From Fimbriimonadaceae bacterium (GTDB taxonomy: Bacteria; Armatimonadota; Fimbriimonadia; Fimbriimonadales; Fimbriimonadaceae), in contig JAHBTD010000002.1 of assembly GCA_019638775.1 (NCBI GenBank), forward strand, positions 62,001 to 126,000: 64,000 nt of DNA. The letters run 5' to 3'. Under the pieces are notes generated by a model. That model had not been told where the DNA came from. It saw only the letters and a list, made by a program, of their open reading frames with translations, and did no database searches. The position numbers and the translations under genes are program-made. How positions within the stretch are numbered: the stretch's first letter is position 1; each line of letters opens with the position of its first letter. Below are positions 5,763 to 63,686 of the stretch, one piece after another.

Positions 5763-5770
5763 GAAGGGTT

Positions 5771-5880
5771 GGCAGGTGGTCGGCAAGTAGTCGGCAGGTG
5801 GCCGGCAGGTGGTCGGCAGGTGGCCGGCAGGTGGTCGGCAGGTGGTCGGCAGGTAGTCGGCAAGTGGTCGGCAGGTGGTT
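5771..5880. repeat. 11-bp tandem repeat, 10 copies
   Basis: Ten head-to-tail copies of an 11-bp unit, consensus GGCAGGTGGTC, with a few single-base variants (GGCAAGTAGTC, GGCAGGTGGCC). There is no spacer, so it is not a CRISPR. It fills the gap after murJ. Related 11-mers, partly in reverse orientation, occur at 55991-56070. Confidence 0.95.
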
Positions 5881-5959: not shown

Positions 5960-6538
5960 ATGCCGAAGAGAGTTGAAACGATCGTTTTCCATGACAGCTC
6001 CACGCCGATGATCGGCGATACACAGGGCGGCGGCAACGTCATTGTCACTACTGTAGAGTCCCTTTTGAACCAGGCTCGCGCCAACGCACTGTGGCCCTTG
6101 ACCTTTGGCCTCGCATGCTGCGCCATCGAAATGATGTCCACCGTTGCCGCGCGATTTGACCTTGCCCGCTTCGGTTCGGAAGCCTTCCGCGCAACGCCCC
6201 GGCAGGCCGACGTCATGATCATCGCCGGTCGGCTGAGCAAAAAGATGGCTCCGGTGCTCAGACAGATTTACGACCAGATGCCTGAACCCAAATGGGTGAT
6301 CAGCATGGGCGCCTGCGCCAGCACGGGCGGCGTTTATAACAACTATGCGATCGTGCAGGGTGCTGACCAGGTGGTTCCGGTCGACGTTTATGTCCCCGGT
6401 TGTCCGCCCTCGCCCGACGCTCTCATTTACGGCATCATGAAGCTTCAGGAGAAGATCAAGCGAAGCAAGGCGAAGTCGTTTAGCGATCTCCGGCTGATTG
6501 AGATCAATCCGCGACAGCTTGAAGAGGTCAAATCGTGA
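5960..6538 (+). CDS. nuoB: NADH-quinone oxidoreductase subunit B
   Basis: 192 residues. NuoB holds cluster N2, the last iron-sulfur centre of complex I before quinone, in the membrane-peripheral arm. The ligands are all present: the Cys53-Cys54 pair in GLACC, Cys119 in MGACAS and Cys148 in PGCPPSP. It overlaps nuoI by 4 bases (GTGA), so the two are translationally coupled. The usual partners (nuoA, C, D, E-H and J-N) are absent on both sides, so complex I genes must be scattered. A TAAACT -10-like box lies 13 bases before the ATG and there is no Shine-Dalgarno. Confidence 0.97.
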
Positions 6539-7017
6539 GCGTTGGACTCTTTGGCAGCGTCGTCAAGCCGATCTTGAGCGGCATGAGCATCACGGCAAAG
6601 CGGCTTAAGCATAAGAAGATTACGGTTCAGTACCCCGAGGAGCGGCGTGAGCACTATCAGCGCACTCGTTGGCGACACTTTCTCACTCGCTACGAAAGCG
6701 GTCTGGAGAAGTGCATCGGCTGCTCGCTTTGCGCGGGGGCATGTCCGGCGCGCTGTATCTACGTTGAAGCTGCTGAGAACACGGACGAAGAGCGATACTC
6801 GCCCGGCGAGCGCTACGCCACGCGCTACGAGATCAACATGTTGCGGTGTATCTTCTGCGGTTATTGTCAGGAAGCTTGTCCGACCGGGGCGATTGTTCTG
6901 CGGCAGAACTTTGAGTTGTCGGTCTATAACCGGGAAGATGCGCTTTTCACCAAGGAAATGCTTCTCGAAAAGCATCCTGGCGAAGCGGACGAGTGCTACC
7001 AGACGAATCAAGGTTAG
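6535..7017 (+). CDS. nuoI: NADH-quinone oxidoreductase subunit I (2x[4Fe-4S])
   Basis: 160-residue ferredoxin-like subunit carrying clusters N6a and N6b, which pass electrons to NuoB. There are two CxxCxxCxxxCP motifs, at Cys60/63/66/70 ([12 protein letters not shown]) and Cys105/108/111/115 ([12 protein letters not shown]). It starts at GTG, overlapping the nuoB stop. The last 27 residues (from EDALFT to NQG) have a diverged second copy 1.1 kb downstream at 8141-8224. Together with the low-GC DNA between, this points to a rearrangement at this 3' end. The gene itself looks intact. Confidence 0.96.
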
Positions 7018-7107
7018 TGTCCGGGCTTGACGTTTGTGATGTCGTTGGATGCACAACCATCAACGCCCTTCATTCATGGCACAGAGTCCGTCAACTTTCC
7101 ACGAGGA

Positions 7108-7456
7108 CTATGTCTTGCCTATGTAGACCTTTTGAACAGTCCCCTTACTTTCATAGAAAACAATAATTGTCGGTGTTAATCGATATATATTAACCGTACC
7201 TTCAGAGGAGGGGATGTCCGATGGTTTATAGGAATGACTGATGTTCTGTCTATGGTTGTTGTTAAAGTCCGCTGCACTGAGTTCTGATTCAGGCTGGCCA
7301 AATATTTTTGCGTACTTGGCCCCAAGGTTGCCCAATTAGATTCCTTGCTTGTTGCTCTTCTTCAGAAGTGTCATAAATCATACTAAAGAATAGAAAGACG
7401 GCTAAAAGCATCGACGCCGTGATGATTCCGCAGAGAATTAGTTCCTTTCGTTTCAT
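7108..7456 (-). pseudogene. Small membrane-anchored protein gene with a frameshift
   Basis: Reading from the ATG at 7456, 55 codons encode MKRKE, a strong hydrophobic N-terminal segment and then a motif LIGQPWGQVRKNI, before a stop at 7289-7291. A second frame continues without stops through FGQPESELSAADF to a stop at 7108 (GTVQKVYIGKT). Joining the frames with one extra base in the A/T run near 7302-7312 restores one protein of about 115 residues. It would have a membrane anchor or signal and a small beta domain that recalls SmpA/OmlA-like small exported proteins. It is either a recent pseudogene or a sequencing indel. The DNA is clearly poorer in GC than its neighbours. Function is unknown. 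Confidence 0.6.
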
Positions 7457-7585
7457 TTGACACTCTTATAACTATGTTGTTTCAGGGAGTTCAAAAAGCA
7501 CAACCATAACTTGCCGAACGAGCCTATTGATATCTATTCTAATCCTATATATCACATCAGAGAAATTCAAAAGACGAATGAAATA

Positions 7586-7906
7586 TTAGGCATTGAATCC
7601 AAGCACTCCAGACACTATATTGATTGCTGAAAGCAAGAACAGTAGGATATTTACCACAAGTAGAGCCAGTGAAGGGGCAAGGAGCTTCCAAGATGATTCG
7701 CGCAAAATAGTCGTTATTAATAAGACAATTGAGATCGGAGCAATGGTCAGACTAGCGACTATTAAAATACCCACGAAGAAAGCACCAAACATGCCAAATT
7801 CGTACATTAGGACCATGATCGGACATGTTGTCCCAACGGACAGAGCGATGACGTTACGCAATCTTGTTTCCTTTCGTTTACTATAGAAGGCTTGAGGGAT
7901 GTACAT
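7586..7906 (-). CDS. Small hydrophobic membrane protein
   Basis: About 106 residues with three likely membrane helices, after a short basic N-terminus containing SKRKETRLR. A TTG at 7861 has AAGGA seven bases upstream and may be the real start, giving about 91 residues. The ATG at 7906 has no ribosome site. It is AT-rich like the neighbouring frameshifted gene, and its KRKE-type N-terminus resembles that gene's MKRKE. Both may have arrived together. No family recognised. Confidence 0.5.
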   Translation of the reverse strand: MYIPQAFYSKRKETRLRNVIALSVGTTCPIMVLMYEFGMFGAFFVGILIVASLTIAPISIVLLITTILRESSWKLLAPSLALLVVNILLFLLSAINIVSGVLGFNA

Positions 7907-8140
7907 GGAATGTTGGATGCCTCAGAACCGCGCACATCAATTCTCTTGCCAGCATCATACGCCCACCCGTGAAGCCGACGCACTCAGACCGATGCTCACA
8001 GTATACGACGGTCCTATCCCTACAAAGCTGTGAATGCCCGCCCATGTTCGGGGGCGGCCCATTATCAAGCGTCGAGGACTTTGCCCCAATAGCCCAGACT
8101 GCGACTGCCTGACCCCGTGCTTCAGAGCCCCAAGAAATCA
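7907..8140. other. Intergenic stretch, nothing identified
   Basis: I find no supported gene. Overlapping short frames exist on both strands, but none has a ribosome site or recognisable product. This is the right-hand part of the low-GC segment between nuoI and the displaced NuoI tail. Confidence 0.4.
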
Positions 8141-8224
8141 AAAGATGCTCTGTTCACCGACGAAAAACTGCTCTTTTCTTCTCCTGACGAAATCAACAAG
8201 CGCTACAAAACGGACCAAGGTTGA
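8141..8224 (+). pseudogene. Displaced NuoI C-terminal remnant
   Basis: Read in frame from 8141, this gives 27 residues (KDALFT...PDE...TDQG, then TGA). They align without gaps to the last 27 residues of the NuoI encoded at 6535-7017, with 14 identities, including DALFT, LL, P, E, Y, T and QG before the stop. Upstream of 8141 the frame loses similarity, and there is no start or ferredoxin domain. It is therefore a detached tail, left by a duplication or by insertion of the 7.0-8.1 kb segment. Homology is my hand alignment of translated sequence. Confidence 0.65.
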
Positions 8225-8276
8225 TCCCGACTGCACCCCGTTGCCATGCCAGAACGTAATAGAATAGCGACTATTC

Positions 8277-8777
8277 ATGAACGGCGAACTGGCAATACGT
8301 ACAACCGAGGGCCCACGCCCCATCCATCCTGGAATCCGAAAGGTGTGGCTCTTCTCGAACTCAATGACGTTTCTGATCCTTGCAATTGTGGCGAGCGGCG
8401 GCGAGTACCTCTTCGTGAGGCAAGATCTTGTCCCTTGGAGCTTTCCCCTGCTTGCTCCGATCTTTTTCCTTAGCCTGTGGGCGTTCTCCGCGTTCATGGT
8501 GAAGCGTCAGTGGGAGAATTGGACTTATGAGGTCACTCCCACCGAGATCATTCTTTCGTGGGGAGTGCTTTGGCAAACCAAACGGTTCGTCCCGCGCGAT
8601 CGCGTCCAGCACGTGGACGTCAATTCTGGCCCGCTCGACCGTCGGTTCGGGCTGGTGCAAGTCTCTCTCTTTGTGGCGGGTGCAATGGGTTCGGTAGGTT
8701 CGATTCCTGGACTAAAGCCTGAAGAGGCCGACGAACTTCGCGACATGTTGGTGGAGTCGCAGGCCAAGCATGTTTGA
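8277..8777 (+). CDS. Bacterial PH-domain membrane protein, YdbS-like
   Basis: 166 residues. Two hydrophobic helices (about residues 25-75) are followed by one bPH_2 (PF03703, formerly DUF304) domain with the usual WxxxxYEVTPTEI, then RDRVQHVDV and FGLVQVSLFVAG. It overlaps the next gene by 8 bases. The pair has the same layout as ydbS-ydbT of Bacillus. The molecular function of this family is poorly known; it is membrane-associated. TAGAAT, 11 bases before the ATG, may be a -10 box. Confidence 0.85.
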   Translation: MNGELAIRTTEGPRPIHPGIRKVWLFSNSMTFLILAIVASGGEYLFVRQDLVPWSFPLLAPIFFLSLWAFSAFMVKRQWENWTYEVTPTEIILSWGVLWQTKRFVPRDRVQHVDVNSGPLDRRFGLVQVSLFVAGAMGSVGSIPGLKPEEADELRDMLVESQAKHV

Positions 8778-10239
8778 TCAGCCGCGACGACTTCATATCG
8801 CCAGCATCGTCATAGGCGTCGGCACTTACATTCGCCATGCGCTTTGGCCGCTTGTCGCCGCGCTCTACTTTAGCTTCAAGGGTAGTGAAGATAAGAGCGA
8901 GCTTGTCGTTCTGATCGTGATGGCGTGCGTCGGCCCGCTGTTGCTTATCGGTCCAATCCTGGCGTACATCTCCACTACATTCTTCATCCAAGCGGACTCT
9001 CTGATTATCCAAAAAGGGGTGATCTGGAAGCAGAGGCGCACGATTCCGCTTTCTCGCATTCAGAACGTCAATATCAAGCAGACCGTTTGGCATCGAATAA
9101 TGAAGGCCGCCGCCGTCATGGTTGAAACAGCGGCGAGCAACGGTGTTGAAGGACAGCTCGACGCGCTTGGGATCGACGACGCGCATGCACTTCAGCAAAT
9201 CTTGCTTCAGCAAGCAGCGATTGAAGAGGACGCCGAGAAACCGCCCGTTCAGCCGGAGCTTTTCTCGCTTACGACCAAACAGATTCTGCTGTCGGGAGCG
9301 CTCAGGAACCGGGCCTTGTTTATCATTGCCGGTGTCGCAGGCGCATCCCAGTATGAGGGTTTGGCCCGGGGGGCTTTCAAACCGGTTGTGAACTTGCTCT
9401 CCCACACAAACCCCGTGATTGGTGCGTTGCTCAGCGCGGCGGCTTTTTTGGGGTTGATCATCGTTGGGTGGCTTCTGTCCATTGGCTATTCGGCTTTGAG
9501 GTTCTACGGGTTTCGGATCGAACGGCATACGAAAGGGTTGATGGTCACCCGAGGGCTGTTGACTCACATACGCTCGATCATCCCGCTTGGGCGCGTTCAG
9601 CAGGTCCGCATCGTGCAGCCGATGTTCTTTCGGTTCTTTGACTACTGTGAAGTGTTCTCGTATACGGCAGGCTCTTTTGACGACAAAGAGGCAGCGGGAG
9701 CGAGCAACCTGTGCCCTATTCTTCCCATCGACGACATTGAGAGGATCGGAAAACTCGTGTTTCCCGATTTCGCGTTCTTCTCGCTGGCTTGGTATCAGGT
9801 GAGCCGGAAAATGATTCGACGTGCTGCTTTTGGGAGCTTCATCTCACTAAGCATTTTCATCGTGACGCCGCTTTGGTTTTGGCTGCACTCGCTCGCCTTT
9901 TTTGCTTTGCCGATTATCGCGGTCATCGCGATCATGACCGGATTTCTAAGGTACCGGTATGTCGGTTATGCGCTAAACGAGAACTACATCGCATCTCGGC
10001 AGGGCATGCTTCAAAAGGAGGTTGCGTTGATGCCAATCCAGCGTGTGCAGCACTACACCCTCCGGCGCACGCTCACTCAGCGATGGTTGGGGCTGGCGAG
10101 CATTGACATCTTTAGCGCGGCAGCGACCGGTTCGCACATCGTGATCCACGATCTGGACTATGATGTTGCCCTTCAGGTCCAGCAAAGATTGTCAGAGATT
10201 TATGCCAAGCAGGGGCCGCACACGTTAGGAGGGCTGTGA
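8770..10239 (+). CDS. Bacterial PH-domain membrane protein, YdbT-like
   Basis: 489 residues with three bPH_2 repeats separated by paired membrane helices. The repeats are marked by IPLSRIQNVNIKQ (about residue 95), IPLGRVQQVRIVQ (about 275) and MPIQRVQHYTLRR (about 420). This is the usual YdbT architecture and length. It is translationally coupled to the YdbS-like gene, and the two proteins probably act together in the membrane. It converges on the DUF2330-like gene with a gap of only 10 bases. Confidence 0.87.
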   Translation: MFDQPRRLHIASIVIGVGTYIRHALWPLVAALYFSFKGSEDKSELVVLIVMACVGPLLLIGPILAYISTTFFIQADSLIIQKGVIWKQRRTIPLSRIQNVNIKQTVWHRIMKAAAVMVETAASNGVEGQLDALGIDDAHALQQILLQQAAIEEDAEKPPVQPELFSLTTKQILLSGALRNRALFIIAGVAGASQYEGLARGAFKPVVNLLSHTNPVIGALLSAAAFLGLIIVGWLLSIGYSALRFYGFRIERHTKGLMVTRGLLTHIRSIIPLGRVQQVRIVQPMFFRFFDYCEVFSYTAGSFDDKEAAGASNLCPILPIDDIERIGKLVFPDFAFFSLAWYQVSRKMIRRAAFGSFISLSIFIVTPLWFWLHSLAFFALPIIAVIAIMTGFLRYRYVGYALNENYIASRQGMLQKEVALMPIQRVQHYTLRRTLTQRWLGLASIDIFSAAATGSHIVIHDLDYDVALQVQQRLSEIYAKQGPHTLGGL

Positions 10240-10249
10240 GCCTACGTAG

Positions 10250-11584
10250 CTACCGCTTTCTTGACTGCCTGACACTGCGGTCCAGTTCACGGTCAGCTTC
10301 ATTCAGTTCCATATACTTCTGTCGTGACAGTTTGACGGTCTCGACCTTTTCGACGGATCCGTACCAACCAAGCCCATAGATTGAGGAAAGCAAGACTGTG
10401 GCCCCCGCTGCAATGGCGGTAAGTCGTCCTACTCGTTGCTTGGCGAAAAGCAGCAGCCCACCCAGGCCGATGCTGACAAAAGGCAGAGCATAGATGGCTT
10501 GATGCCAGATTGCCGTTTTCGCTTCTTCTCGGTCGAACATTGTTGCGGTGAACTCGCCCTGCATAGGCTCTAGTGTGATGTGAAAGTCCTCTTTCATCTG
10601 ATCGGGTCTCACAGCGCCGTTGTAGTACGTGCGTACGTCGTCATTCTGTGCAACGGTGTACGCTGTGCCGTTCCACTCGCTATAGATTTCGCCCTCTTCA
10701 GGTTTTTGTCCAGGGACTCGCACGTTCAAGCTTCCTGACGCTCGACTTCGCAGCCGGAGTTGAGGGATGTTGGCCTGCTGTTCCGCGATGACAAGCAACT
10801 CCAGATAGACATCCGTGCCTTGGGTGCCCGTCAGCCGCATCGGATAGACGAGCTTGTCGGATTTGAAAACAACCTTCAGCGGATGCGCAGGCAGGCTTGT
10901 CTCGGAGTCCTTGCGGAAACGGCTGACGAGGAACCACCACCCCTCAGACGCATAATCTTTGACCGCAGCCCGGGACTCATCAGGGATATGAAATCCGTTC
11001 GTATCTAACCAGTCGAGTACGGCGGTTCCGTCCTCATCCTGAATGGCTTTCACTTCGTAAGCTCCGATCGTCCCGTAGTTTTGGTGCCCCACGATGCCCT
11101 TTGTGGAGTCACCGCCCCCGAAGACAGGGAAGAGAATGGAGATCAAGAGAACTACGAGGATCTCGCCAATTAGGCCCGTCACACGTGAGGTGCGCACACC
11201 TTTGCGGTATCGCAGCGCAAAAGTAAGCGCCAGGATTGTGATAAGGAAACAGAAGAAGTACGCAAATGTGTCGGGAGGATATAGAGGTTGGACACTTGGG
11301 CGCACTCGGCGAAAGCTTTCCCTTAAATACTCTGGTCTTACCGGTTTGACAAAAAGCGGTTTCGAGGGCACGGGAACCACCCAGCCATACTCTCCCTTGG
11401 GTCCCGCGATGGCGGATTCAACGATCATCGTTTCGATGCCGTCTTCGTACTTTAGGATGGCGCGCTGAGTGGGGATGCTGGGGTTTTTCTCACGCAGGAG
11501 TTTCGCTGAGAAGGCTTTACCATCGGCGAAGCTCAGGCATGTTGTCAGCAACAGGAGCAAAAGGGCGCTGGCAATTCTGTTCAT
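10250..11584 (-). CDS. DUF2330-like secreted/membrane protein
   Basis: 444 residues. An N-terminal signal peptide is followed by QRAILKYEDGIETMIV and YGWVVPVPS, the pattern of DUF2330 proteins. A membrane segment lies near residues 107-150, then a soluble domain of about 200 residues, then two more hydrophobic segments near the C-terminus (about 365-410), ending in a charged tail. GAGGAA precedes the ATG. Function is unknown. It is divergent from the BMP transporter gene with a 105-base shared upstream region. Confidence 0.7.
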   Translation of the reverse strand: MNRIASALLLLLLTTCLSFADGKAFSAKLLREKNPSIPTQRAILKYEDGIETMIVESAIAGPKGEYGWVVPVPSKPLFVKPVRPEYLRESFRRVRPSVQPLYPPDTFAYFFCFLITILALTFALRYRKGVRTSRVTGLIGEILVVLLISILFPVFGGGDSTKGIVGHQNYGTIGAYEVKAIQDEDGTAVLDWLDTNGFHIPDESRAAVKDYASEGWWFLVSRFRKDSETSLPAHPLKVVFKSDKLVYPMRLTGTQGTDVYLELLVIAEQQANIPQLRLRSRASGSLNVRVPGQKPEEGEIYSEWNGTAYTVAQNDDVRTYYNGAVRPDQMKEDFHITLEPMQGEFTATMFDREEAKTAIWHQAIYALPFVSIGLGGLLLFAKQRVGRLTAIAAGATVLLSSIYGLGWYGSVEKVETVKLSRQKYMELNEADRELDRSVRQSRKR

Positions 11585-11677
11585 TTCCTCACGCTTGTAA
11601 TTAGAGCGTATTGTAGACGCACTTTAGTTCGTTCAAACTCGCGACAGCTTGCCCACCCTTTTTCTGCCCGAACAGCG

Positions 11678-11683
11678 TAGAAT
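11678..11683 (+). promoter_or_regulatory. -10-like box directly before the bmp gene
   Basis: TAGAAT ends 6 bases before the ATG at 11690, and there is no Shine-Dalgarno. A transcript from this box would start at or next to the ATG, i.e. leaderless. No good -35 is seen. Confidence 0.4.
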
Positions 11684-11689
11684 CTTGAC

Positions 11690-12694
11690 ATGAAGGTATG
11701 GAGTTCATTGGCGGCTTTATCGCTGCTGTTGGTTGTGGGATGTTCGGGCGGATCGAAGGAGCCGGATCAAACTTCGACCGGGGGAGATGCCGCAAAGGGT
11801 GAGGCGGAGTTTAAGGTCGCTCTGCTCACTCCCGGACCGGTCTCCGATCAAGGCTGGAGCGCTTTGGCGTATGACGGCCTCAAGGCCATCGAAGGCGAAA
11901 TGAGCGCCCGGGTTGACAATCAGCAGGCAACGGGACCCCAGATCAAGGACAGCATGCGCAGCTACGCAAGGCAGGGCTACAAGCTCGTGTTTGGGCATGG
12001 CTACGAATACAACGAGCCCGCGGCGGAGATTGCCAAGGAGTTTCCGAACACCATCTTTATCAGTTCCTCGGGCGGAATGACGGCTGAGAATGTGGGGGCG
12101 TTCCGCTTCTACCTGGAGCAGAGCTTCTACCTTTGCGGCTATATGGCAGGGATGATGACCAAGACCGGCAAGGTGGCGATGGTGGGCCTCAACTACCCTT
12201 CGATTGTCTCAACCTTCAAAGGATTTAAGGCGGGGGCTGAGGCGGCAAGGCCGGGGATTGTCGTCATCGAGAAGTTCATCCAGGGCGGCACAGACATTGC
12301 GGAGGCAAAACTGTCCACCCTTACGGCAATCAGTCAAGGCGCGGACTTTGTCATCCATCAGGCCAACGCAGCCGCGCCGGGTATTTTCGGGGCTTGCAAA
12401 GAGAAGAATGTGTACTGTTTTGGGGCGAATTGGAATCAGAACGAAGACGGTCCCACTGTGATCGCATCGGCCACGATCATCGCTCGACCGGCGTTTCTGG
12501 AGCTTGCCAAGGAGGTTAAGGAAGGCAAGTATAAGGGATCGGTCGTTCTAAAAGATATGCAGCAGGGTGCGATTGACTTCATCCTCAATCCTAAGCTCGC
12601 CGACAAGGTTCCAGCAGAGGTCAAGGCCAAGTTAGACGAACTGAAGAAGCAGATCACCGACGGCACACTTGTCGTTCCAAAGGATGAGTTTTAG
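11690..12694 (+). CDS. BMP-family substrate-binding lipoprotein of a nucleoside ABC importer
   Basis: 334 residues. A lipoprotein signal with lipobox LLVVGC gives a Cys18 anchor. The periplasmic binding protein domain of the BMP (Med/PnrA/BmpA) family follows, with LLTPGPVSDQGWSALAYDG near the N-terminus and FGHGYEY and FIQGGTDIAEA further in. Family members bind purine nucleosides. It is the first gene of the importer set and is followed by the ATPase and two permeases. A palindromic C-rich/G-rich element lies in the gap before the ATPase gene. Confidence 0.92.
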   Translation: MKVWSSLAALSLLLVVGCSGGSKEPDQTSTGGDAAKGEAEFKVALLTPGPVSDQGWSALAYDGLKAIEGEMSARVDNQQATGPQIKDSMRSYARQGYKLVFGHGYEYNEPAAEIAKEFPNTIFISSSGGMTAENVGAFRFYLEQSFYLCGYMAGMMTKTGKVAMVGLNYPSIVSTFKGFKAGAEAARPGIVVIEKFIQGGTDIAEAKLSTLTAISQGADFVIHQANAAAPGIFGACKEKNVYCFGANWNQNEDGPTVIASATIIARPAFLELAKEVKEGKYKGSVVLKDMQQGAIDFILNPKLADKVPAEVKAKLDELKKQITDGTLVVPKDEF

Positions 12695-16999: not shown

Positions 17000-17706
17000 C
17001 GCAGCGAGCGATTGTCACCGGGGCAGGCACTGGAATTGGGAGAGCAGCAGCGATCGAGCTCTCGATGCGTGGCTGTGAGTTGATTTTGGCAGGACGCCGC
17101 ATAGACAAGCTTCACGAAGTTGCCGAGGAGTGCGCCGGAAATGGCTCAGTCGCGCTTCCTCATGCAGCTGACATCTCTACCGCTGAGGGATGCGACAGCG
17201 TGATTCAAGCGGCTCGCGACCTTCCTGGAGGAATTGAACCTGTGCTGGTGAACTGTGCGGGCGCTGCCGCATTTGGTCCTTTGCACGAGATGAGCCAAGA
17301 GTCGATTGAGGTTCAGATCAACACCAATCTTGCCGCACCTATTGAGCTCACGAGGGCGATTCTGCCCTGGATGCTGGAATCGGGCGGGGGGCGCATCGTG
17401 AATGTGGCAAGCATGGCCGCCACGCGGGTTCTGCCAGGCTCGGCGGTGTACTCGGCAACAAAGGCCGGGCTCCTGCAATTTGGGCGTGTGGTCCTTCAGG
17501 AGTATCGCGATCGAGGGGTTTTGGTGACAACGGTTCTGTGCGGAGCAGTGGACACGCCTCTTTGGGATGACCTGGAGTTTTCACCCAACCGCAATGACAT
17601 GATCCCGGTTGACATGATCGGCAAAGTCATCGCTCAAGTGGTCACCGCTCAACGGAATATGGTCGTTGAAGAATTGACAGTGATGCCGCTCAAAGGCGTC
17701 CTTTAG
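16996..17706 (+). CDS. Short-chain dehydrogenase/reductase (sepiapterin-reductase-like context)
   Basis: 236 residues, classical SDR. The nucleotide motif is TGAGTGIG at the N-terminus, followed by NCAG near residue 88, then the catalytic Ser (NVASMAA) and YSATKAG (Tyr-x-x-x-Lys). The cofactor loop has AGRR, suggesting NADP(H). Substrate cannot be read from sequence. Its coupling to a PTPS-like gene makes a sepiapterin-reductase-type step plausible; 3-oxoacyl-ACP reductase is the main alternative. Its stop codon lies inside a heptamer array. Confidence 0.85.
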   Translation: MTQRAIVTGAGTGIGRAAAIELSMRGCELILAGRRIDKLHEVAEECAGNGSVALPHAADISTAEGCDSVIQAARDLPGGIEPVLVNCAGAAAFGPLHEMSQESIEVQINTNLAAPIELTRAILPWMLESGGGRIVNVASMAATRVLPGSAVYSATKAGLLQFGRVVLQEYRDRGVLVTTVLCGAVDTPLWDDLEFSPNRNDMIPVDMIGKVIAQVVTAQRNMVVEELTVMPLKGVL

Positions 17707-17743
17707 ATTTTAGATTTTAGATTTTAGATTTTGGATTTTGGAT
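17702..17743. repeat. Heptamer array, 6 units
   Basis: TTTAGAT x4 then TTTGGAT x2, in perfect 7-bp phase. The first unit contains the stop codon of the SDR gene. Confidence 0.9.
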
Positions 17744-17778
17744 TGCCTATTCAAAAATTCATACTTCCGAATCGACGA

Positions 17779-21203: not shown

Positions 21204-21252
21204 CAGCTATCGGCAATCAGCTATCGGCAATCAGCTATCGGCTATCAGCAAT
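21204..21252. repeat. Heptamer array, 7 units
   Basis: CAGCTAT and CGGCAAT alternate (CAGCTAT, CGGCAAT, CAGCTAT, CGGCAAT, CAGCTAT, CGGCTAT, CAGCAAT). It begins 8 bases after the HNH stop. A hairpin GGCTTGATG/CATCAAGCC follows at 21257-21284. Confidence 0.9.
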
Positions 21253-21256
21253 CTTG

Positions 21257-25343: not shown

Positions 25344-25399
25344 CCTCAGCGATCAGCGAACGAGAGAAAGGTGATCGCCGATTGCTGATCGCTGAGAGC
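25344..25399. repeat. Heptamer array, 8 units
   Basis: CCTCAGC, GATCAGC, GAACGAG, AGAAAGG, TGATCGC, CGATTGC, TGATCGC, TGAGAGC. It fills the gap between the convergent FKBP and HAAS-type genes. Confidence 0.75.
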
Positions 25400-25403
25400 T
25401 TTC

Positions 25404-27872: not shown

Positions 27873-28790
27873 ATGGAGAAACGCCACGATCCGGTGATGG
27901 TAGAGGAGATCCTACGAGATTTCAACCTGCAGCCGGGCATGACGGTGGTGGATGGAACGCTCGGGTTGGGCGGGCATTCGTCAGAGTTTTGTAAGCGGAT
28001 CGCCCCTAGCGGGAAGCTGATTGGATTTGATTGGGACGCCGGAATGATGGCGTCGGCTATGGACCGGTTGCAAAGCCTAAGCGGCGTCGAGCTTCAGTTC
28101 GTACACGACAGCTTTATGACCATGCCGCAGGTTTTGGGAGAGTCGGACGTTCGTCCGAACGCGATTTTGTTGGACTTGGGACTGAACAGCGCGCAAGTTG
28201 ATGACCCAGCACGCGGTTTCAGTTTCCTGCAAGAAGGCCCTCTGGATATGAGGATGGACAGAGGCCGAGGCGAACCGGCATCGGCGGTGCTGATGCGGAT
28301 GTCGCCGGTACAGATCGAAGACATCCTCAAGGATTACGGCGATGAAAGATGGGCAAAAGCGATCGCCCGAAAGGTCGTGGAGCATCGAAAGCAAGCTCCA
28401 ATCCGAACAACGAAGGATTTGGTGGATTGCGTTCATGCGGCGATCCCGGTTGGGGCCCGAGAGAAGCGGATACACCCGGCGACTCGGACCTTTCAGGCGT
28501 TAAGGATTTACGTCAACCGAGAGTTAGATGGGCTTGAGGAGGCGCTGATGGATTCGGCGCGGCAGTTGTCACCAGGTGGTGTGATGGCCGTTCTGAGTTA
28601 TCACAGCGGAGAAGACAGGATCGTCAAGCACGCATTTCGAGAGTTGATAGGTGAAGGCTTTGAAGAGTTGCACAAGAAGCCTCTTCAGCCGACGGACGAT
28701 GAGATTAGGAAGAACTCGAGAGCGCGGAGCGCGAAGCTCCGCAGCTTGAAGCGATCTGCCATCAGCGATCAGAAATCAGGAGACAGATAG
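27873..28790 (+). CDS. rsmH: 16S rRNA (cytosine-1402-N4)-methyltransferase
   Basis: 305 residues, SAM-dependent enzyme that methylates C1402 of 16S rRNA. The HDPVMVEEIL N-terminus, the SAM loop DGTLGLGGHS, LDLGLNSAQVDDPARGFSF, FQALRIYVNRELDGL and AVLSYHSGEDRIVKH are all family hallmarks. ATG 27873 (GAGGT upstream) is preferred over an upstream in-frame ATG at 27789. The last dozen residues are encoded by the heptamer array at 28758-28813, so the C-terminal tail is repeat-derived. Confidence 0.96.
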   Translation: MEKRHDPVMVEEILRDFNLQPGMTVVDGTLGLGGHSSEFCKRIAPSGKLIGFDWDAGMMASAMDRLQSLSGVELQFVHDSFMTMPQVLGESDVRPNAILLDLGLNSAQVDDPARGFSFLQEGPLDMRMDRGRGEPASAVLMRMSPVQIEDILKDYGDERWAKAIARKVVEHRKQAPIRTTKDLVDCVHAAIPVGAREKRIHPATRTFQALRIYVNRELDGLEEALMDSARQLSPGGVMAVLSYHSGEDRIVKHAFRELIGEGFEELHKKPLQPTDDEIRKNSRARSAKLRSLKRSAISDQKSGDR

Positions 28791-28813
28791 CCGATAGCAG
28801 AAAGCTGATAGCT
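28758..28813. repeat. Heptamer array, 8 units, reaching into rsmH
   Basis: GCCATCA, GCGATCA, GAAATCA, GGAGACA, GATAGCC, GATAGCA, GAAAGCT, GATAGCT. The first 33 bases are coding (rsmH stop at 28788-28790). Confidence 0.8.
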
Positions 28814-38820: not shown

Positions 38821-38876
38821 AACAGCAAACAGCCACCGGCGTATCGATCGCCGATGGCTGATAGCTGATAGCTGAC
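38821..38876. repeat. Heptamer array, 8 units
   Basis: AACAGCA, AACAGCC, ACCGGCG, TATCGAT, CGCCGAT, GGCTGAT, AGCTGAT, AGCTGAC. It occupies the whole gap between murG and the convergent gene. Confidence 0.7.
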
Positions 38877-46808: not shown

Positions 46809-46871
46809 GATTACTGATCGCCGATAGCTGATAGCTGATAGCTGATAGCTGATAGTTGATAGCTGATAGCC
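46809..46871. repeat. Heptamer array, 9 units
   Basis: GATTACT, GATCGCC, GATAGCT x4, GATAGTT, GATAGCT, GATAGCC. It is the most regular GATAGCT-type array and fills the gap between two convergent genes. Confidence 0.95.
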
Positions 46872-55990: not shown

Positions 55991-56070
55991 CTCAGGTGGT
56001 CGGCAATTGGCCGGACGCAACCTACAGACAACATGCCGACCACTTGAAGACAACTTGCCGACGCTCCCTG
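55991..56070. repeat. 11-bp repeats in both orientations
   Basis: CTCAGGTGGTC and GGCAATTGGCC (55991-56012) match the 11-mer at 5771-5880. GACAACATGCC, GACCACTTGAA, GACAACTTGCC, GACGCTCCCTG (56027-56070) match its reverse complement GACCACCTGCC. The unit is thus shared by two loci 50 kb apart and is inverted within this one. Confidence 0.7.
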
Positions 56071-56082
56071 CCACAATATCTC

Positions 56083-63609: not shown

Positions 63610-63616
63610 GGTGGGT

Positions 63617-63686
63617 GTTAGGCGTTGGGTGCTGGGCGTTGGGCGTTGGGCGTTGGACGTTAGGCGTTAGGCGTTAGGCGTTAGGC
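63617..63686. repeat. Heptamer array, 10 units
   Basis: GTTAGGC, GTTGGGT, GCTGGGC, GTTGGGC x2, GTTGGAC, GTTAGGC x4. It fills the uppS upstream gap and supplies the stop codon of the neighbouring gene. Confidence 0.95.

Follow-up and report, generated by a model that had tools for sequence, protein, structure and literature searches.

The 64,000-nucleotide stretch of DNA analysed here (the window) lies on a contig of the 4.3-Mb genome of an uncultured bacterium, among the named relatives of which Fimbriimonadaceae and other Armatimonadota assemblies are the nearest. In this stretch the respiratory complex I gene nuoI is followed, about 1.1 kb downstream, by a short open frame that reads as a second and strongly diverged copy of its own 3' end. 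The locus raises the question of whether this sequence is a true copy of the nuoI tail and, if it is, which of the two tails is native, what kind of event separated them, and whether the downstream copy has a function. Below, the tail of nuoI is referred to as T1 and the downstream sequence as T2, and the coordinates of both, together with those of the neighboring genes, are collected in Table 1.

Table 1. Features in and around the interval between nuoI and the Bmp lipoprotein gene (window positions)
Feature	Position	Strand	Basis or remarks
nuoB, encoding NADH-quinone oxidoreductase subunit B; paired with nuoI and upstream of it; intact	5960..6538	+	Pfam PF01058, E 6e-30
nuoI, intact, most likely with its native C-terminal tail	6535..7017	+	Fer4 domains; 80% identical to sister-genus NuoI
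T1, functional copy of the repeated tail	6935..7017 (repeat proper 6935-7015)	+	Repeat analysis
Small orphan gene with an apparent frameshift; its frames are 7289-7456 and 7108-7335	7108..7456	-	GC 41%; no Pfam hit above threshold
Intact gene for a small, 106-aa orphan protein, hydrophobic and membrane-like	7586..7906	-	GC 42%; no Pfam family
T2, stranded second copy of the nuoI tail, diverged	8142..8224 (repeat proper 8142-8222)	+	67.9% DNA identity over 81 nt; not found in other family genomes
Pair of overlapping genes for bacterial PH-domain membrane proteins	8277..10239	+	Pfam PF03703
DUF2330 gene	10250-11584	-	Not downstream of nuoI in any of the 70 loci compared
Bmp family lipoprotein gene, first of a Bmp/ABC transporter operon	11690..12694	+	Pfam PF02608, E 5e-40

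Limits and significance of the repeat

The translation of positions 8141-8224 is KDALFTDEKLLFSSPDEINKRYKTDQG followed by a stop codon, and its ungapped alignment with the last 27 residues of NuoI contains 14 identities, exactly as a first-pass annotation of the window had reported; translation and alignment bear out both its coordinates and its sequence. At the DNA level, 8142-8222 pairs with 6935-7015 without gaps, 55 of the 81 bases (67.9%) being identical, and the two copies are co-terminal, each ending at a stop codon that differs between them (TAG in T1, TGA at 8222-8224 in T2). Gapped comparison against shuffled sequence detected no significant similarity 5' of 6935/8142 (P 0.18) or 3' of the two stops (P 0.56). 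Because homology extends only from 6935/8142 to the stop codons, the repeat is 81 bp in length; its two copies start 1207 bp apart and are in direct orientation on the same strand; the longest identical runs at its ends are of 7 bases (AAGATGC, CAAGGTT).

The protein alignment scores 67 with BLOSUM62, or 68 counting the stop, and a six-frame scan of the window returned T2 as the only match scoring at least 45 besides nuoI and the ferredoxin repeat within it. When both strands were scanned with the 84-nt sequence, T2 matched at 55 of 84 bases and every other position at fewer than 46. In a BLAST comparison of the window with itself, the T1/T2 pair (E 2.4e-4) is the best repeat in the 64 kb outside tandem arrays, the only better pairs being those between short heptamer arrays. 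Identical residues tend also to share their codon: 11 of the 14 do so, where local codon usage would predict 4.6 (P 4e-4). The same scan, applied as an empirical null to as much as 8 kb beyond the nuoI gene of about 70 relatives, reached maxima of 37 for protein and 17 for DNA, as compared with 68 and 29 here. Beyond short chance matches, a search of the whole genome with T2 found only T2 itself and the end of nuoI. The match withstands the significance testing whose failure the first-pass annotation had named as a refutation, and T2 is a homologous copy of the nuoI tail. Chance similarity can scarcely explain it: although an all-against-all search of 64 kb permits a few weak matches, among which a protein score of 67 would by itself be borderline (our own estimate, from standard ungapped statistics), T2 shares the strand of nuoI, lies just 1.1 kb beyond it and has a co-terminal stop, and the DNA-level identity, the shared codons and the null from relatives all argue against coincidence.

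Short arrays with 7-base units occur in the window at 17702-17744, 21204-21253, 25372-25400, 28786-28813, 38846-38875, 46814-46870 and 63612-63686. Those beginning at 21204, 25372, 28786, 38846 and 46814 are variations on the unit GCTGATA and appear to form a single dispersed family of heptamer repeats.

The native tail and the altered copy

In the relatives whose loci were compared, nuoB starts about 1 kb before the end of nuoI on the same strand. The comparison set for NuoI is composed of other genera, among which the closest NuoI proteins are 80-81% identical. T1 retains the conserved tail residues of NuoI from the closest genera, and its DNA is 83-89% identical to that of sister genera over 42-59 bases, whereas T2 has D where 74 of 75 relatives have K, and F where 71 of the 75 have E; most of the 13 residues that differ between the two tails are derived in T2. 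The first-pass proposal that the tail had been replaced or regenerated is therefore unsupported, since nuoI carries the tail that its relatives predict and T2 is the deviant one, although with a comparison set drawn from other genera a tail acquired from a very close relative is conceivable. Both tails share the motifs DALF and TxQG-stop, a combination absent from all relatives examined, and T1 and T2 thus most likely diverged inside this lineage. The synonymous distance between them is about 0.6, against a near-saturated value of more than 2 to the sister genus where this was computable; with few sites both figures are rough, and to that extent they date the duplication to after the split from the sister genus. 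The residues point to a duplication within this lineage as the most likely history, T1 being the native tail and T2 the altered copy.

Between nuoB and a murJ-like gene, positions 5767-5879 are occupied by an 11-base tandem repeat, GGTCGGCAGGT, in about 10 copies; a related stretch in reverse orientation is found near 56017-56074.

The intervening DNA and its neighborhood

The frameshifted small gene lies 90 bp from the end of nuoI. The DNA between the tails had been described as low in GC and as bearing two small minus-strand genes, and each part of that description holds for a portion of the interval. GC content falls to 33-42%, vs about 56%, across 7108-7906, but is back at 57% in the 234 bp of 7907-8140; similarly, the gene at 7586-7906 is intact, but the frames at 7108-7456 are two pieces of a single gene with an apparent frameshift at about 7310, as deduced from an intact 115-aa paralogue elsewhere in the genome (G000:C1:1260311-1260655; 37% identity over 115 aa). 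The frameshifted gene has, in addition to this paralogue, weak relatives in 8 family genomes, so that part of the insert may be home-grown. For the hydrophobic protein there is one weak relative, in genome G056 (37%, E 4e-4). The two small genes have paralogues, but no direct repeats arranged like T1 and T2 were found near these.

Comparison with relatives widens the interval of interest. The Bmp gene lies downstream of nuoI in 16 of the 70 loci with enough sequence, mostly within 95-600 bp, both counts being slightly inflated because a few genomes are represented more than once (2 of the 16 loci are such repeats or near-duplicates). In the sister genus the nuoI-Bmp gap is about 380-575 bp, vs 4.7 kb here, and neither the PH-domain pair nor the DUF2330 gene is present downstream of nuoI in any of the 70 loci. 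Given that relatives lack these genes after nuoI, the whole 4.7 kb (7018-11689), and not just the low-GC 1.1 kb, appears to be lineage-specific. The PH-domain pair was also considered as an ancestral neighbor of nuoI, a candidate rejected on account of its absence from that position in every relative examined; its closest relative resides in an unrelated neighborhood, beside a trmFO-like gene (so named from a reading of the translation).

Probable origin and fate of the stranded copy

We consider it probable that a partial duplication of the nuoI end accompanied an insertion of DNA, and that the copy stranded by it then decayed. The 3' end of nuoI would have been rearranged in this lineage alone, leaving a second, partial tail copy of about 81 bp beyond an insert of approximately 1.1 kb that is mostly low in GC; nuoI would have kept, or been left with, its native functional tail, and T2, being without a role, would have drifted as a pseudogene fragment. 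A single event presumably made both copy and insert. The first-pass annotation had likewise invoked an insertion and partial duplication, which fits a repeat that is co-terminal and lineage-specific and relatives that lack the intervening DNA. It had also taken a lack of such sequence in relatives without the insert to speak against its reading. No T2-like or second nuoI tail was in fact found in relatives, either within 8 kb downstream of nuoI at about 70 loci or in the family genomes searched, but a lineage-specific duplication predicts the same absence, which is therefore no refutation. Two observations sit less comfortably with duplication and drift: the absence of any indel together with a stop kept by way of a different codon is somewhat unexpected for neutral drift, and the homology ends exactly at the stop, where that of a random segmental duplication need not. 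An inversion with staggered breaks was also rejected, as this would yield an inverted repeat and T1 and T2 are direct.

The prophage remnant e14 of Escherichia coli K-12 leaves a 163-bp icd' duplicate (PMC6379469), and the present locus resembles that system in that the 3' end of a gene occurs twice in direct orientation, one copy on the intact gene and the other beyond an insert. By analogy, an integrative element might have entered nuoI by a crossover near 6935, providing T1 as the new tail and pushing the original one, T2, to its far end, where T2 then decayed while the element shrank to 1.2 kb. Such an origin would suit the direct repeat that runs from inside the gene to the stop in both copies and flanks the insert, the foreign-looking low-GC DNA between them, and the kept frame, absence of indels and different stops expected of two tails that once ended working genes; the genome moreover has tyrosine recombinases elsewhere. 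We nonetheless regard it as unlikely. The insert is only about 1.1 kb and contains no recognized integrase, excisionase or phage gene, and in place of a near-identical att core the copies show uninterrupted identity over no more than about 7 bp and are just 68% identical overall. With a limited set of query integrases, no recognizable integrase was found downstream of nuoI in relatives, the one integrase gene near nuoI being of Xer type, upstream, and at a distant locus. A few pairs of direct repeats occur at the genome's own integrases, none of them recognized as a gene-end duplication. No relative has a second tail, T2 is unmatched in phage records (pattern hits in viral contigs are not nuoI tails), and the intact gene, unlike in the e14 case, has in T1 the tail expected by vertical descent. 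A literature search found no report of nuoI as an integration site. It is quite unlikely that a mobile element integrates, or once integrated, at the nuoI 3' end in this lineage and provides NuoI with a new C-terminus, although, if true, a respiratory complex I gene would join the list of protein-coding integration targets; an intact mobile element at nuoI in a close relative, if found, would define a new integration site.

The 32% divergence, the lack of indels and the alternative stops would equally suit two once-functional tails derived from two parents, as expected if a nuoI end and its flank had been acquired from the DNA of a related species by recombination, whether homologous or illegitimate. 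A xenologous origin of this kind is quite unlikely, as T2 breaks nearly invariant NuoI columns and a T2-like tail was found in no relative. Partial duplication with decay of the copy, our preferred reading, places T2 among the ordinary partial duplications and pseudogene fragments found next to insertions in bacteria, which it resembles as a short, presumably non-functional 3' fragment near its parent that seems to be under no obvious constraint; nothing essential differs, other than that the limits here are unusually neat at the stop and the frame is unbroken. T2 resembles a commonplace scar in the genome and gives no indication of a function. As a lineage-specific mark on a conserved respiratory operon it is a minor piece of genome history, and it illustrates cleanly how a stranded gene end may be distinguished from a chance match.

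T2 consists of only 27 homologous codons, includes no Fe-S domain and forms no complete gene of its own, and no in-frame start codon with a ribosome-binding site was found for it; by its sequence it is unlikely to be functional and presumably is a pseudogene fragment. It is very improbable that T2 belongs to a 36-aa small protein starting at a GTG near 8115 or serves as a leader of the PH-domain operon: its frame is open with a retained stop and that operon begins 52 bp downstream, but no ribosome-binding site is seen before the GTG, nothing is conserved in relatives, there is no RNA family match, and folding of the upstream segment is not unusual. A search of the insert for structured RNAs and Rfam families likewise found none. 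The substitution pattern, too, is near-flat, as differences between T1 and T2 are distributed over the three codon positions as 11:7:11, vs 8:4:27 between nuoI genes of different genera; dN/dS is about 0.66, which together with the flat pattern hints, over a comparison of only 27 codons, at relaxed constraint. T2 has, at the same time, accumulated zero indels in 81 bases, and its frame remains open to a stop kept via a different codon, which speaks weakly for the opposite. When drift was simulated with indels ignored, about 4% of trials kept the frame open up to a stop codon that had changed. The unbroken frame, absence of indels and changed stop thus leave room for selection to have acted on both tails before one was stranded.
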